Positions 22,885-30,404 of a stretch of 64,000 nucleotides of DNA are shown here, piece by piece (within the stretch, counting starts at the first letter, position 1; each line of letters begins with the position of its first letter). This DNA is from Gimesia maris. Its GTDB lineage: Bacteria > Planctomycetota > Planctomycetia > Planctomycetales > Planctomycetaceae. Under the pieces are notes generated by a model that was not told the DNA's origin, did not search any database, and saw only the letters and a list, made by a program, of their open reading frames with translations. A program made the translations under genes and the position numbers. Location of the stretch: NCBI RefSeq assembly GCF_008298035.1, contig NZ_CP042910.1, positions 6,572,001 to 6,636,000 on the forward strand, read 5' to 3'.

Positions 22885-23592
22885 ATGACACAACTTACCA
22901 ATTCCATCTCACGCTCGCAGGTAGAACAACTGGTTCGTCAGGCTTTGTCTCAGCAAACAGGAGGGACGGCATCCACACCACAGACTGCTCCCAACCCGCT
23001 GGTCGTCAATATCTCAGCCCGACACATCCATCTTTCACAGGAGCACCTGGAAGTCCTGTTCGGGAAAGGTGCCCAGCTCGAAGTTCAGAAAGACCTGTAC
23101 CAGGATGGTTACTTCGCAGCGACTCAGACGGTTGCCGTTGTTGGCCCCCGCCGCCGGATGATTCCTAACGTGCGTGTCCTGGGTCCCTGCCGTGGTGACA
23201 CTCAAGTCGAACTTGCTTTTACCGACACCATCTCGCTGGGACTCGATGTTCCCATTCGCATCAGTGGCGACCTCAAAGGCACCCCCGGCTGCGTTCTGAT
23301 GGGCCCGAAAGGCGTTGTTGAACTGGAATTCGGCGTGATTCGTGCCGCCCGTCACGTGCACATGTCACCCGCCGACTGTGCTTATTACGGCTGCTCTAAC
23401 GGCGATAACCTGCATCTGCGAATTGAATCTGCAGGCTGCACGACGGTCCTGGAAGACGTTGTCGTCCGCGAAAACCCTGAAGTCAAACTCGAAGTCCACA
23501 TCGACACCGATGAAGGGAACGCCGTCGACCTCGACCATGCCACTTCAGTGAAACTCTATGTACCTGAAGGCTGCAAATGCAAACACAGCTGA
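22885..23592 (+). CDS. pduL: PduL-type phosphate acyltransferase with encapsulation helix
   Basis: This 235-residue enzyme exchanges CoA for phosphate on an acyl group inside microcompartments. It has the two PduL domains: [17 protein letters not shown] with HxH zinc ligands near residues 47-49, and later [12 protein letters not shown] with another metal-binding pair. Residues 9-23 ([15 protein letters not shown]) form an amphipathic helix followed by a Gly/Thr/Pro linker, the form of a BMC encapsulation peptide. I use the ATG at 22885. An upstream TTG at 22870 is unlikely. In this pathway the substrate would be lactyl-CoA or propanoyl-CoA, giving the phosphate for the acetate-kinase homologue. 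Confidence 0.93.
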
Positions 23593-25776: not shown

Positions 25777-26088
25777 ATGTTTATAGGACGCATAACCGGT
25801 AGTGTTGTTTCGTCTCAAAAAGTCGAAACAATGATCGGTCAGAAGCTGCTCATTGTCGAACCGTTGCGCGTCAACGAAAAAGACCAGAGTGATCTGACTC
25901 CCACCGGACGATCGTTTATCGTCGTCGATACTGTGGGAGCAGGGCAGGGGGAAGTCGTATTGTGTGTGCAGGGGTCATCGGCCCGTTTCACACCTGAGAC
26001 GAAATCACTGCCCATCGATGCAGCCATTATCGGCATTGTCGATCAGGTTCACATTGGTCCTAAAGAAATATTTAACTCGACGGATTGA
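25777..26088 (+). CDS. EutN/CcmL-type pentameric shell protein (BMC-P), copy 1
   Basis: The 103-residue protein starts MFIGRITGSVVSSQKVETM, the usual opening of the EutN/CcmL family. It continues with GQKLLIVEPLRV, FIVVDTVGAGQGEVVLCVQG and the closing PIDAAIIGIVDQV. These proteins form pentamers that cap the shell vertices. An ACAGGAG site precedes the ATG. It is the first of three BMC-P genes in the operon, and three different copies are characteristic of the planctomycete type. The closing tail (HIGPKEIFNSTD) is longer than in copy 2. Confidence 0.94.
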   Translation: MFIGRITGSVVSSQKVETMIGQKLLIVEPLRVNEKDQSDLTPTGRSFIVVDTVGAGQGEVVLCVQGSSARFTPETKSLPIDAAIIGIVDQVHIGPKEIFNSTD

Positions 26089-26114
26089 ATTTCGTTCTGT
26101 CCCGGAAACACAGC

Positions 26115-26633
26115 ATGTCACGCGAATTGCCACAAATCACTCTGCAACAGCGACAGATGATGATGACCGTCATCTGGCTCGCATTGATCATGGGTGTGGT
26201 GACATTCGGCATGATTGTGACTTTTATCGGACTGAAGGAAGAACCGGGGAAAGGATTACCAGTCATCACTTATCTGGGAATGGGCCTCGCAGCCCTGATG
26301 CTGGTGCTGCGAATGATTATTCCCAACATGATTGCCCGGAATCAGTTCACACAGGCAATGCAGGAAGCGAGAGAAGAGGGAAATCAGGATGAAGAACAGA
26401 TGCTGGGAACATTTTATCAGATCTTTATGGTGCGAATGATTATCGGGCTGGCCTTACTGGAAGGTGCCGCAATGATCAATCTTGTTGCTGTAATGGTTGA
26501 AAACCAGAAACTGGCTTTCATCCCGGTATCGATCCTGCTGCTGGTCATGATTGCTTCAATGCCCACGAAATCAAAACTGGACGGATGGATTCGCAACCAG
26601 ATGGAAAACTATAACCTGGAACACCAAAACTGA
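26115..26633 (+). CDS. Four-helix membrane protein inside the BMC operon
   Basis: This 172-residue protein has a polar start (MSRELPQITLQQRQMMM) and four hydrophobic helices: MTVIWLALIMGVVTFGMIVT, ITYLGMGLAALMLVLRMII, FYQIFMVRMIIGLALLEGAA and LAFIPVSILLLVMIAS. I prefer the ATG at 26115. An in-frame start at 26085 overlaps the BMC-P gene. No transporter family is recognised. The site is unusual because all its neighbours are soluble BMC parts. It could be a permease-associated or membrane-docking factor, or a gene captured by the operon (inference only). Gaps are 26 bases before and 70 after. Confidence 0.85.
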   Translation: MSRELPQITLQQRQMMMTVIWLALIMGVVTFGMIVTFIGLKEEPGKGLPVITYLGMGLAALMLVLRMIIPNMIARNQFTQAMQEAREEGNQDEEQMLGTFYQIFMVRMIIGLALLEGAAMINLVAVMVENQKLAFIPVSILLLVMIASMPTKSKLDGWIRNQMENYNLEHQN

Positions 26634-26703: not shown

Positions 26704-28134
26704 ATGCAGGCGACTGAAGAAGCCATTCGTAGTGTCGTACAGGAAGTGTTATCACAGCTCAATAACAAAGGCGGTTATGGTTCCGCTTCCGCCACCACTC
26801 AAACGGACGGAGACTGGGGTGTATTCCGCAGTGTCGATCAGGCCGTCGCTGCTGCCACTGCCGGACAGAAGCAGCTGCTGAACGCCACACTGGCTGACCG
26901 GGCCAAGGCTCTGGAAATCGTTAGACAGATCTGTACCAGCCAGGCTGATGAACTTGGTCGTATGGAAATGGAAGAGACCAAAATCGGTCGCCTCGATCAC
27001 AAAATCGAAAAACTGCATCTGATCAAAAGCATTCCCGGCATGGAATTCCTCAAAACGGAAGCCGTCTCCGGTGACTACGGTGTCAGCCTTACCGAATACG
27101 CCCCGTTCGGCGTCATCGGTGCGATCACCCCGGTGACACACTCCCTGCCGACCCTGGCCTGTAACTTCATCAACATGGTCGCAGCCGGCAATACGCTGGT
27201 CGTCAACCCGCACCCCGGCGGAGCAAAAATCGCCTGCGAAGGGGTTCGCCGCTTCAACCGGGCTATCTATCAGGCAACTGGCCTGCAGAACCTGGTCACG
27301 ATCGTCGAGACTCCTACCCTGGAAACTGCAGATGAAATCTTCAATCACCGCGGTATTCCACTGCTCGTTGTGACCGGCGGACCGGGTGTCGCCCGCGCCG
27401 CTCTGGCTGCTAAAAAACGGGCGATTGTTGCCGGCCCGGGGAACCCGCCTGTCGTCGTCGACGAAACCGCAGACATCGAAAACGCCGCAAAATCGATCAT
27501 CATCGGGGCTGCCTACGATAACAACCTGCTCTGCATCGGCGAGAAAGAAGTCTTCGCCGTTGAAAGTATTTTTGACCAGTTGATGTCAGCCATGGGGCGT
27601 CATGGTGGATTCCAGCTGAACGCACAGCAGGTCGAACAACTCACCTCGCTGGCCTTCGCTCCTCCCAAAGAACCGGGCGGACACGCGATCCTCAACCGCG
27701 ACTTGATCGGCAAAGATGCCGCCGTGCTCGCTGGGATGATCGGCGTCAGCGTGCCGGCAGGAACTGAATTACTTTACGGCGAAACCGATACAAACAACCC
27801 GTTCGTGCCTGAAGAGCAGATGATGCCATTCGTGCCTTTTGTTCGCTGTCGCAATGCAGATCATGGGATTGAACTGGCCAAAGAATTCGAACATGGATTC
27901 CGTCATACCAGCATGATCCATTCTCGCAACATCGAAACGATTACAAAAATGGGACGTATCATGGACACCACTCTGTTTGTACAGAATGGTCCCTGTGGTG
28001 CCGCCCTGGGGAACGGGGGAGAAGGTTATGCATCATTCAGCATCGCCACTCCGACAGGTGAAGGAGTCACCAACCCAATGACATTCACACGTTTCCGTCG
28101 TTCCACCACCGTGGGACACTTACGGGTTATTTAA
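26704..28134 (+). CDS. pduP: PduP-type CoA-acylating aldehyde dehydrogenase
   Basis: This 476-residue enzyme oxidises an aldehyde to its CoA ester with [15 protein letters not shown] places the catalytic Cys at residue 277, and [15 protein letters not shown] and [12 protein letters not shown] form the nucleotide-binding region. The N-terminus (residues 5-20, [16 protein letters not shown]) is an amphipathic helix, followed by a Gly/Ser/Thr linker to residue 38, as in BMC encapsulation peptides. In the planctomycete pathway lactaldehyde, or propionaldehyde, is the substrate. It starts with ATG at 26704 behind GGGGAGAAAT. A hairpin lies directly upstream. Confidence 0.95.
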
Positions 28135-28180: not shown

Positions 28181-28441
28181 ATGTTGACAGGACAGGTCAT
28201 AGGACGAGCAACCGCAACGGCAAAACACCCCAGTCTTGCCGGCTGGCGATTATTGCTGGTCCAGACTCTGGACATCAAAGGCAACGCAGATGGATTTCCT
28301 GAACTGGTCATCGACCGCCTGGGATGTGGCAAAGGGGATATCGTCCTGCTGACTTCCGACGGTGCAGCTGTCCGGGATATGGTAGGAACCAATAATACTC
28401 CCATTCGCTGGGCCACCATGGGCGTCATTGATCGCGAATAA
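28181..28441 (+). CDS. EutN/CcmL-type pentameric shell protein (BMC-P), copy 2
   Basis: The 86-residue protein is the shortest of the three BMC-P copies and the closest to the plain family form. MLTGQVIGRATATAKHPSL opens it, GWRLLLVQTLD is the core strand, then LVIDRLGCGKGDIVLLTSDG, RDMVGTNNTPIRWATMGVID. It should cap shell vertices as a pentamer. A GCAGGAATG segment precedes the ATG. The start of its sequence closely matches that of copy 3 (KHPSLDGARWLV), so these two look like the more recent duplicates. Confidence 0.95.
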   Translation: MLTGQVIGRATATAKHPSLAGWRLLLVQTLDIKGNADGFPELVIDRLGCGKGDIVLLTSDGAAVRDMVGTNNTPIRWATMGVIDRE

Positions 28442-28472: not shown

Positions 28473-29147
28473 ATGCAGTTTTCTGAAGAATTAGTCAACC
28501 AGGTTGTCGCCAATGTACTGTCGACCCTCTCCCGCCAGGGACAGGTCGCACAGCACGCTGGTACAGCCTCGCCTGATGCTTCAGTCGTGTTAACAGAAAA
28601 AGTCATCACGGCGGATCTGTTATCGGCAAAGGTGAAAGGACAAACTTCGGTCGGCATCGCCGCGGGAGCCATCCTGACACCCACTGCGAAAGATTATATA
28701 CGTCAGAACCAGATCAGCGTGCATCGGGCTTCGACAGTTGCTGCTTCTACAAGGCAGGGAACGAAGTGGCGGGCAATCGTGCTCACCCCTTCGTCAGCCG
28801 TTGAAAATGCTCTGACTGACATCGAACAACAGACTGGCTCACGCTGGTCACAGGAATTAAGTACCTCACTGGATCACGCTGTGAAAGATGCGATCAGCAG
28901 CCTGTGTCGTGCCGATGCTGCAGGAGTTGTCCTGTTTGCCTCCGCGGCAGAAAAAGCAGCCTGCCTGGCCAATCGAAATCAGAAGGTCCGTGCGGCAGCA
29001 GTACAGGACGTCAATCACTTAAGAGATGTAATCTCGCAGATGGGGCCTAACCTGATTTGCGTAAATCCCAAACAGAAATCGTTTATCGAACTGAGAAACC
29101 TGATCAAAACATTCGTCAAGGCAGGCATTCCCCGGGAAATCAACTAA
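28473..29147 (+). CDS. Unknown BMC cargo-like protein with two-part architecture
   Basis: This 224-residue protein is part of the locus but has no confident name. I start at the ATG at 28473, because the in-frame start at 28428 overlaps the BMC-P gene. Residues 3-20 (FSEELVNQVVANVLSTLS) form an amphipathic helix with a linker, matching the PduP and PduL targeting helices. Residues 38-86 (VITADLLSAKVKG, then AGAILTPTAKDYIRQNQI) resemble the N-terminal segment of EutT/PduO-like and related BMC proteins. Residues 148-215 (GVVLFASAAEKAACLANRNQ, then VRAAAVQD) resemble the phosphosugar-isomerase RpiB/LacAB fold, but the usual CGTG motif is absent, so catalysis of that kind is doubtful. Confidence 0.85.
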   Translation: MQFSEELVNQVVANVLSTLSRQGQVAQHAGTASPDASVVLTEKVITADLLSAKVKGQTSVGIAAGAILTPTAKDYIRQNQISVHRASTVAASTRQGTKWRAIVLTPSSAVENALTDIEQQTGSRWSQELSTSLDHAVKDAISSLCRADAAGVVLFASAAEKAACLANRNQKVRAAAVQDVNHLRDVISQMGPNLICVNPKQKSFIELRNLIKTFVKAGIPREIN

Positions 29148-29167: not shown

Positions 29168-29449
29168 ATGAAAATCGCAGAAGTCATCGGAAAAGTGACC
29201 TTGTCTCGCAAGCATCCCAGTCTGGATGGTGCCCGCTGGCTGGTCGCGATTCCTTTGAAGAGTGATGAGCTGAATTCAAAAAAGAAGAAAAAAACGGAAC
29301 CCTTTGTCATTTACGATGAGCTGGGTGCTTCACCGGGCTGCCAGATTGCAGTCAGCGAAGGAGCAGAAGCAGCCGCTCCCTTTCATCCTGATGTGAAACC
29401 GATTGACGCGTATGTGTCAGCGATACTCGATCAGGTTGAAGTTTACTGA
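29168..29449 (+). CDS. EutN/CcmL-type pentameric shell protein (BMC-P), copy 3, with Lys insert
   Basis: The 93-residue protein has the BMC-P opening (KIAEVIGKVTLSRKHPSLDG), the core strand and the closing DAYVSAILDQVEVY. Between the first strands it carries an insert NSKKKKKTEP of about eight residues, five of them consecutive lysines, which is absent from the other two copies. The insert falls in a loop that could face the pore or an outer edge. It starts with ATG at 29168. It lies between the unknown cargo-like protein and the aldolase. Confidence 0.94.
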   Translation: MKIAEVIGKVTLSRKHPSLDGARWLVAIPLKSDELNSKKKKKTEPFVIYDELGASPGCQIAVSEGAEAAAPFHPDVKPIDAYVSAILDQVEVY

Positions 29450-29513: not shown

Positions 29514-30404
29514 ATGTCAAATCAATGGAACAGTGGAATTCATGATCGGAAGCTGAAAGAAGAAATCTGCGAAATCGGACGTCGCGTTTACAACAAGGGC
29601 TTCGCAGCAGCCAACGACGGAAACATTTCCATTCGCGTCGGCGAAAACGAAGTGCTCTGCTCTCCTACCATGATCTGCAAAGGCTTCATGAAGCCAGACG
29701 ACATCTGTGCTGTCGACCTTGATGGAAACCAGATTGCCGGTACCCGCAAACGCACCAGTGAAATTCTGTTGCACCTCGCAATCATGAAAGAACGTCCAGA
29801 TGTCAAAGCCGTTGTGCACTGCCATCCTCCTCACGCGACCGCCTTCGCTGTTGCCCGCGAGCCCATTCCTCAGTGCGTACTGCCTGAAGTGGAAGTCTTC
29901 ATGGGTGAAGTTCCCATGGCGCCTTATGAAACACCGGGCGGACAGAAGTTCGCTGACACAGTAGTGCCGTTCCTCAAAGGGGGCACGAACACGATCATCC
30001 TGACAGGACACGGCACCGTGACCTTTGGAAAATCACTGGAAGATGCCTATTGGAAAACAGAGATCCTGGATGCCTACTGCAATATCCTGCTGCTCTCCAA
30101 ACAACTGGGTCGCGTGACTTACTTCACCGAAAACGAAACCCGGGAACTGCTTGACCTGAAGAAGAAGCTCGGATTTGACGATCCTCGTTTCCATGTCGAA
30201 GACTGTGACCTGTGTGGAAACAGCGCATTTCGTGATGGTTATAAAGAGGGAATTCCTCAGCAGAAATCCTTCGAACCGGCTCCCAGCTATCCCGGGTACC
30301 TGTCGAAACCTTCGACGCAGGCAACTCCTGCAACCAATAACGGAGACTCTGATCAGTTGATCAAAGCGATTACCGATCAAGTCATGTCGGCTCTGGGTAA
30401 ATAA
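29514..30404 (+). CDS. Class II sugar-phosphate aldolase with C-terminal targeting helix
   Basis: This 296-residue protein starts at the ATG at 29514 with TGGAGC upstream. It belongs to the fuculose/rhamnulose-1-phosphate aldolase family. AVVHCHPPHATAFAV has the HxH zinc ligands, ILTGHGTVTFGKSLEDAY the third His, and the AANDGNISIRVGENEVLCSP opening binds phosphate. It would split fuculose-1-P or rhamnulose-1-P into DHAP and lactaldehyde. After the catalytic domain (about residue 235) a Pro/Ser/Thr-rich linker leads to DQLIKAITDQVMSALGK, an amphipathic helix and likely C-terminal encapsulation peptide. A small Cys pair (CDLCGN) near residue 233 is unusual. Confidence 0.93.
   Translation: MSNQWNSGIHDRKLKEEICEIGRRVYNKGFAAANDGNISIRVGENEVLCSPTMICKGFMKPDDICAVDLDGNQIAGTRKRTSEILLHLAIMKERPDVKAVVHCHPPHATAFAVAREPIPQCVLPEVEVFMGEVPMAPYETPGGQKFADTVVPFLKGGTNTIILTGHGTVTFGKSLEDAYWKTEILDAYCNILLLSKQLGRVTYFTENETRELLDLKKKLGFDDPRFHVEDCDLCGNSAFRDGYKEGIPQQKSFEPAPSYPGYLSKPSTQATPATNNGDSDQLIKAITDQVMSALGK

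Follow-up and report, generated by a model that had tools for sequence, protein, structure and literature searches.

What does a small protein encoded between two genes for vertex proteins contribute to a bacterial microcompartment? This question is raised by the PVM (Planctomycetes/Verrucomicrobia) locus of Gimesia maris, which lies in the stretch of DNA analyzed here (the window), 64,000 nucleotides of contig NZ_CP042910.1 (positions 6,572,001 to 6,636,000) from a complete genome of 7.8 Mb. The genes of the locus are arranged in the order DeoR regulator, PduL, two BMC-H, acetate kinase (AckA), BMC-P, membrane protein, aldehyde dehydrogenase (AldDH), BMC-P, the gene in question, BMC-P, class II aldolase and lactate/malate dehydrogenase, and the gene is thereby encoded together with the set of enzymes and shell proteins that identifies a PVM cluster, including three BMC-P genes. 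The cluster composition used for this comparison was taken from published descriptions (PMC11958385; PMC4207490). Since the locus comprises thirteen genes, as does the pvmABDEGHIJKLMNO cluster of Planctopirus limnophila (PMC11958385), the gene is pvmL by position. Fucose and rhamnose are the substrates of the PVM locus (PMC4207490). Three matches to the BMC-P family PF03319 were detected in the genome, and the start of the pvmL reading frame is backed by homologues with the same initial methionine. The features relevant for the analysis, with the evidence for each, are:

22888..23592, + strand: PduL-type phosphotransacylase with N-terminal encapsulation peptide (EP) (ORF; hhalign)
26704..28134, + strand: CoA-acylating aldehyde dehydrogenase carrying an EP (ORF; hhalign of EPs)
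28181..28441, + strand: BMC-P vertex protein upstream of pvmL, pvmK by position (synteny, PF03319)
28473..29147, + strand: pvmL by position, conserved PVM microcompartment protein of 224 amino acids (ORF, synteny, dN/dS)
28473..28538, + strand: EP-like amphipathic helix, PvmL residues 1-22 (hhalign to the EPs of the locus; PDB matches of the family profile)
28599..28730, + strand: EutQ/EutT/PduM-type module, residues 43-86, with the pattern ITxxxL..G..hxV..AhhTPxA(R/K)D.....I.h (TIGR02536, NCBIfam, AF2)
28761..29132, + strand: degenerate RpiB/LacAB domain, residues ~97-220, with loss of catalytic and phosphate-binding residues (PF02502, hhalign, residue table)
28962..28994, + strand: CLANRNQKVRA, retained RpiB core motif (N167 and R168 invariant, C164 in 38/41)
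29168..29449, + strand: BMC-P vertex protein downstream of pvmL, pvmM by position (synteny, PF03319)
29514..30404, + strand: class II aldolase, the PVM signature enzyme, with C-terminal EP-like helix (ORF; hhalign; family role PMC4207490)

A profile built from five close relatives detected PvmL in 40 of 392 Planctomycetota genomes, and a broader profile added three PVM loci that the first one had missed. Across the phylum, nearly all loci inspected had pvmL flanked by the BMC-P genes K and M. In genus g3 (G105 and G087; L090, L092), pvmL was kept although the pvm genes are dispersed and it has no pvm neighbors; on the chromosome of G105, PvmL is encoded at 0.73 Mb, a BMC-P protein at 3.05 Mb and the aldolase at 3.39 Mb. 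PvmL is not indispensable, because the gene is missing from genome G377, which has a full pvm locus with overlapping K and M genes. In a second exceptional genome, G274, PvmL has only 118 residues and ends soon after the module, with a stop codon that overlaps the start of pvmM. This natural variant lost the RpiB domain and kept helix and module, which suggests that the latter two are the essential parts of the protein. Between close relatives, dN/dS is about 0.1 for the module as well as for the RpiB-like part, which indicates purifying selection on both. Two further observations concern the locus: the gene for the small membrane protein in its middle (26085-26633, pvmI by position) was detected in no other pvm loci examined than those of the family to which the window belongs, and a pvm-type aldolase with 69% identity (G361:C1:3044832-3045704) is encoded in a member of this family without detectable BMC-P or PvmL. 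In the literature searched, the scope of which did not extend to the original PVM description (PMC3993161), no joint mention of pvmL and microcompartments was found.

The N-terminal helix of PvmL, VNQVVANVLSTL, had been compared in the sequence-only reading with the peptide of the aldehyde dehydrogenase (26704); the helix is as described there, and profile-profile comparison supports the likeness. When residues 1-95 were compared with 13 other protein families of the locus using hhalign, only PduL (probability 85), aldehyde dehydrogenase (73) and, weakly, the C-terminus of the aldolase (6.5) were matched, and each match fell on the partner's own peptide. In a search of all PDB sequences, the matches of the PvmL family profile outside RpiB proteins were confined to EutC and the small and medium subunits of diol dehydratase, each time at the N-terminus. 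The signal sequence of PduM was recognized by a similar match to diol dehydratase N-termini (PMC12108088). A simple hydrophobic moment of the helix was no different from background, so that the assignment as a peptide rests on the profile comparison; a phmmer search of PDB with the single helix sequence returned designed helical proteins only. At the sequence level only, PvmL has the cargo- or EP-associating helix that characterizes linkers of the EutQ/PduM type.

The segment of about 44 residues that follows (residues ~43-86) corresponds to no Pfam family. In PvmL it matched the NCBIfam model TIGR02536 (eut_hyp) with an E-value of 1.8e-5, and relatives gave matches at this position to the models for EutQ (6.7e-4) and PduM (8.4e-4). 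A search of 48 such modules against all 18,950 NCBIfam models assigned 38 of them to eut_hyp, 23 and 14 to two PduM models, 11 to EutQ and 3 to EutT; the only other recurrent match was to one unrelated model and involved 2 modules. Conversely, a module profile made exclusively from planctomycete sequences, and therefore without any from E. coli, was searched against 1070 E. coli ORF segments that included the eut and pdu operons. EutT (5.5e-8), EutQ (1.6e-6) and PduM (0.001) were the top three matches, and none of the next fell below 0.19. PduM is the weakest of these links, with an E-value of 0.001 in this search and 3e-4 as best value in the scans of relatives; the PDU_like family PF15953 had no match in the genome carrying the window and was weakly matched by three PvmL relatives. 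Of the earlier description of this segment as EutT/PduO-like, the relation to EutT is thus retained and extended to EutQ and PduM, whereas the relation to PduO was rejected, as hhalign found no match (probability 0.0).

The module is closely associated with microcompartments: 110 of the 113 module-bearing genomes also had a BMC-P gene, and among the same 392 genomes 14 had BMC-P genes without the module. An AF2 model of the module alone reached a pLDDT of 80 and predicted a beta-alpha-beta-alpha-beta arrangement, for which Foldseek returned no match better than E 0.37. The weak top matches of the module profile (A4) in PDB, at non-significant E-values of 0.19-1.8, were E2 peripheral subunit-binding domains, which are docking domains too; the two halves match in swapped order. 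In other planctomycetes, the module stands in front of triosephosphate isomerase, ACT domains and small CxxC proteins, and most of these cases lie close to genes for BMC shell proteins (L149-L163, for example L150:6923-7528, L158:3115-4026 and L155:7214-7519). The NCBIfam model for EutA, NF007991, matched residues 6-92 of E. coli EutQ (L058:18303-19004) with an E-value of 1.6e-9, which may point to an error in the model or to one more segment in common. Through the sequence homology to the modules of EutQ and PduM, the module of PvmL is a putative shell-contacting one, as in these linkers.

Over the core of the fold, the C-terminal part of PvmL is related in sequence to the RpiB/LacAB family (PF02502). 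PF02502 matched 17 of 33 members of the PvmL family, with a best value of 1.1e-6. The score of the window protein itself (14.6 bits) lies below the curated cut-off of 24.7 bits, as does the score of 22.3 bits with which a search of the phylum found the PvmL of a congener unaided. A comparison of PvmL with planctomycete RpiB by hhalign yielded a score of 64.9, whereas 13 unrelated families scored at most 22.7. The RpiB-like character noticed from the sequence alone was therefore correct, but its extent had been underestimated: instead of 75 residues or half a domain, the joint alignment points to a complete, if degenerate, RpiB domain at residues ~97-220. Retained in PvmL are A-N-K/R, R-A and the last Asn of HNDAN. 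The absence of the catalytic CGTG motif, also noticed before, was confirmed by the residue table, in which Asp-His, Asp-Tyr-Pro, Cys-Gly-Thr-Gly, His-Asn and Arg-His..Arg are all lost across 41 PvmL sequences and kept in 29 housekeeping RpiB proteins. Mutations at several of the equivalent residues in LdRpiB abolish activity (PMC4783025). Given the loss of these active-site residues and the effect of their mutation in LdRpiB, a function of PvmL as ribose-phosphate isomerase is very unlikely. Full-length AF2 modeling from a shallow alignment of five close sequences gave a pLDDT of 39, too low for conclusions on the fold; a helix was predicted at residues 5-22.

Proteins that combine the same helix and module with a fully scoring RpiB domain (164-191 bits for PF02502 in three tested) occur in other classes of planctomycetes, and in 15 of 20 stretches their genes adjoin BMC-P genes. 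In one of these loci (L131) the order is BMC-P, RpiB, BMC-P, BMC-P, DeoC-type aldolase and nucleoside phosphorylase, which corresponds to the SPU locus type (PMC8217296). The N-terminal parts of PvmL and of these SPU-type RpiB proteins matched with an hhalign probability of 98. In the BMC-associated RpiB proteins (L129-L148, for example L131:5970-6683), Asp replaces the catalytic Cys of CGTG in 21/21 sequences (DGAG or DGVG), and the other active-site residues are intact. A free tree of the RpiB domain placed PvmL next to the SPU sequences, and AU tests (p 0.57 and 0.42) rejected neither placement of PvmL, so that the argument for descent rests on the three-part architecture and the BMC-P neighborhood common to both. 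On these grounds, PvmL is probably derived from an encapsulated SPU-type RpiB, encoded beside BMC-P genes, in which helix and module were already present. Apparently, this encapsulated enzyme lost its catalytic function and retained its structural role.

We consider it rather probable, at roughly 0.6, that PvmL is a core-to-shell linker that works by analogy like EutQ and PduM and is built on a dead encapsulated isomerase. The N-terminal helix would act as an encapsulation peptide and join the cloud of cargo peptides of PduL, aldehyde dehydrogenase and aldolase, and the 44-residue module would dock to the shell from inside, as was shown for the corresponding EutQ segment. RpiB relatives of the C-terminal domain are dimeric, and this domain, its isomerase chemistry gone, may have been kept for its fold as a probably dimerizing body, which would make the linker bivalent in the manner of the EutQ cupin domain. 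In EutQ of Salmonella, contact with the shell is made by helices H1/H2 (residues 9-41), which lie within the module, and the EPs of the cargo are bound by helices H3/H4 (62-99); loss of H1/H2 or H3/H4 separates shell from cargo (PMC12487888). The role of EutQ at the shell is known from deletion and localization in the enteric Eut organelle, from which we infer by analogy that a similar role may apply to PVM shells. PduM begins with a signal sequence, and without PduM core and shell come partly apart (PMC9132943; PMC12108088).

Comparison with these and related proteins shows how far the analogy reaches. Enteric EutQ and PvmL have in common the module (about residues 1-46 of EutQ), a helical element that binds EPs or resembles them and, at the C-terminus, a folded domain, but the parts follow each other as module, helices and cupin in EutQ and as helix, module and RpiB in PvmL, and the EutQ cupin is the dimerizing part with a reported acetate kinase activity, whereas the C-terminal domain of PvmL is a dead RpiB. 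PduM (PF15953, TIGR04493) resembles PvmL in having an N-terminal signal helix and the module, which forms its C-terminus, and the 118-residue PvmL of G274 has nearly the PduM layout; PduM differs by another middle part and the absence of an RpiB domain, and the module match between the two is weak from either side. The SPU-type RpiB proteins of Planctomycetota have the three parts in the order of PvmL, a profile match over the full length and BMC-P neighbors, but these proteins keep Asp-His, Asp-Tyr-Pro, His-Asn and Arg-His..Arg (with Asp for the catalytic Cys), all of which PvmL has lost. In eut_hyp (TIGR02536), from non-proteobacterial eut operons, the C-terminal 45 residues are the module, and the rest of the 207-residue model was unmatched by PvmL in the searches made. 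The corrinoid adenosyltransferase EutT carries the module in its N-terminal ~50 residues, but has no EP helix before it and a catalytic ATR domain after it.

Two other explanations concern the dead domain. The highly conserved C164 and N167-R168 may mark a binding site, which could count against a linker. If C164 (present in 38/41 sequences), N167 and R168 (41/41) and N193 (40/41) acted on an intermediate of the fucose or rhamnose pathway, PvmL would be an encapsulated enzyme with changed chemistry, and the strong purifying selection on the RpiB domain would be explained. We regard this as improbable: N167, R168 (K/R) and N193 are inherited rather than new, because they are already conserved core residues of RpiB, every known catalytic and phosphate-binding position including the C-terminal Arg-His..Arg tail is lost, the pathway has no obvious missing step, and nature provides a PvmL without the RpiB domain (G274) and a locus without the gene (G377). 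Dead enzymes often turn into ligand sensors, and a PvmL that binds a sugar phosphate through its RpiB domain and gates assembly or flux would fit the finding that, in other BMC loci, the module stands in front of ACT domains, which are a ligand-binding class. PvmL, however, has lost the counterparts of His11, Arg137 and Arg141, with which LdRpiB holds the phosphate (PMC4783025), and this makes such a sensor just as improbable. Among the roles that the sequence-only reading had offered, the scaffold is accordingly the favored one, whereas the sugar-phosphate binder and the isomerase with changed chemistry are disfavored by the loss of all active-site sets and by the G274 form.

Location and inheritance of the gene suggest two further possibilities. 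The fixed place of pvmL in PVM loci, with a BMC-P gene on either side, and the position of the intact relatives beside BMC-P genes would be expected if PvmL were a vertex accessory that binds the pentamers encoded by the flanking genes and fixes vertex identity instead of linking cargo; this seems unlikely, since EutQ docks at the EutM/EutL interface and not at pentamers (PMC12487888), the pvmL gene of genus g3 lies away from the other pvm genes, and synteny alone is no proof of binding. The loss of the gene in G377 and its truncation in G274, both without visible change in the rest of the locus, could also mean that PvmL is a passenger, a leftover of an encapsulated RpiB that enters the organelle and does nothing. 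A dN/dS ratio of about 0.1 in helix, module and RpiB part alike and the retention of PvmL in nearly all PVM loci examined make this very improbable.

Core-shell linkers as such are already known, and PvmL as a linker would be new among them because of its dead isomerase body. PduM has been described as without known homologue outside Pdu organelles (PMC12108088), and no description of a module linking PduM, EutQ, EutT and planctomycete proteins was found in the literature searched, which did not include the original PVM description. As a tentative generalization, which we hold to be conceivable though somewhat doubtful, the 44-residue module could be a general, so far unnamed BMC shell-docking domain that places each partner domain at the shell. 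It stands at the start or the end of EutQ, EutT, PduM and eut_hyp, of RpiB proteins (the SPU type and the dead form of PVM loci), and also of triosephosphate isomerase, small CxxC proteins and proteins with ACT domains. The connection between core and shell of metabolosomes is known in few systems. A module common to PduM, EutQ, EutT and the PVM and SPU proteins would be a single docking element, open to testing in organelles of different types, would predict which uncharacterized proteins sit at the shell and would offer a new tag for loading engineered compartments.
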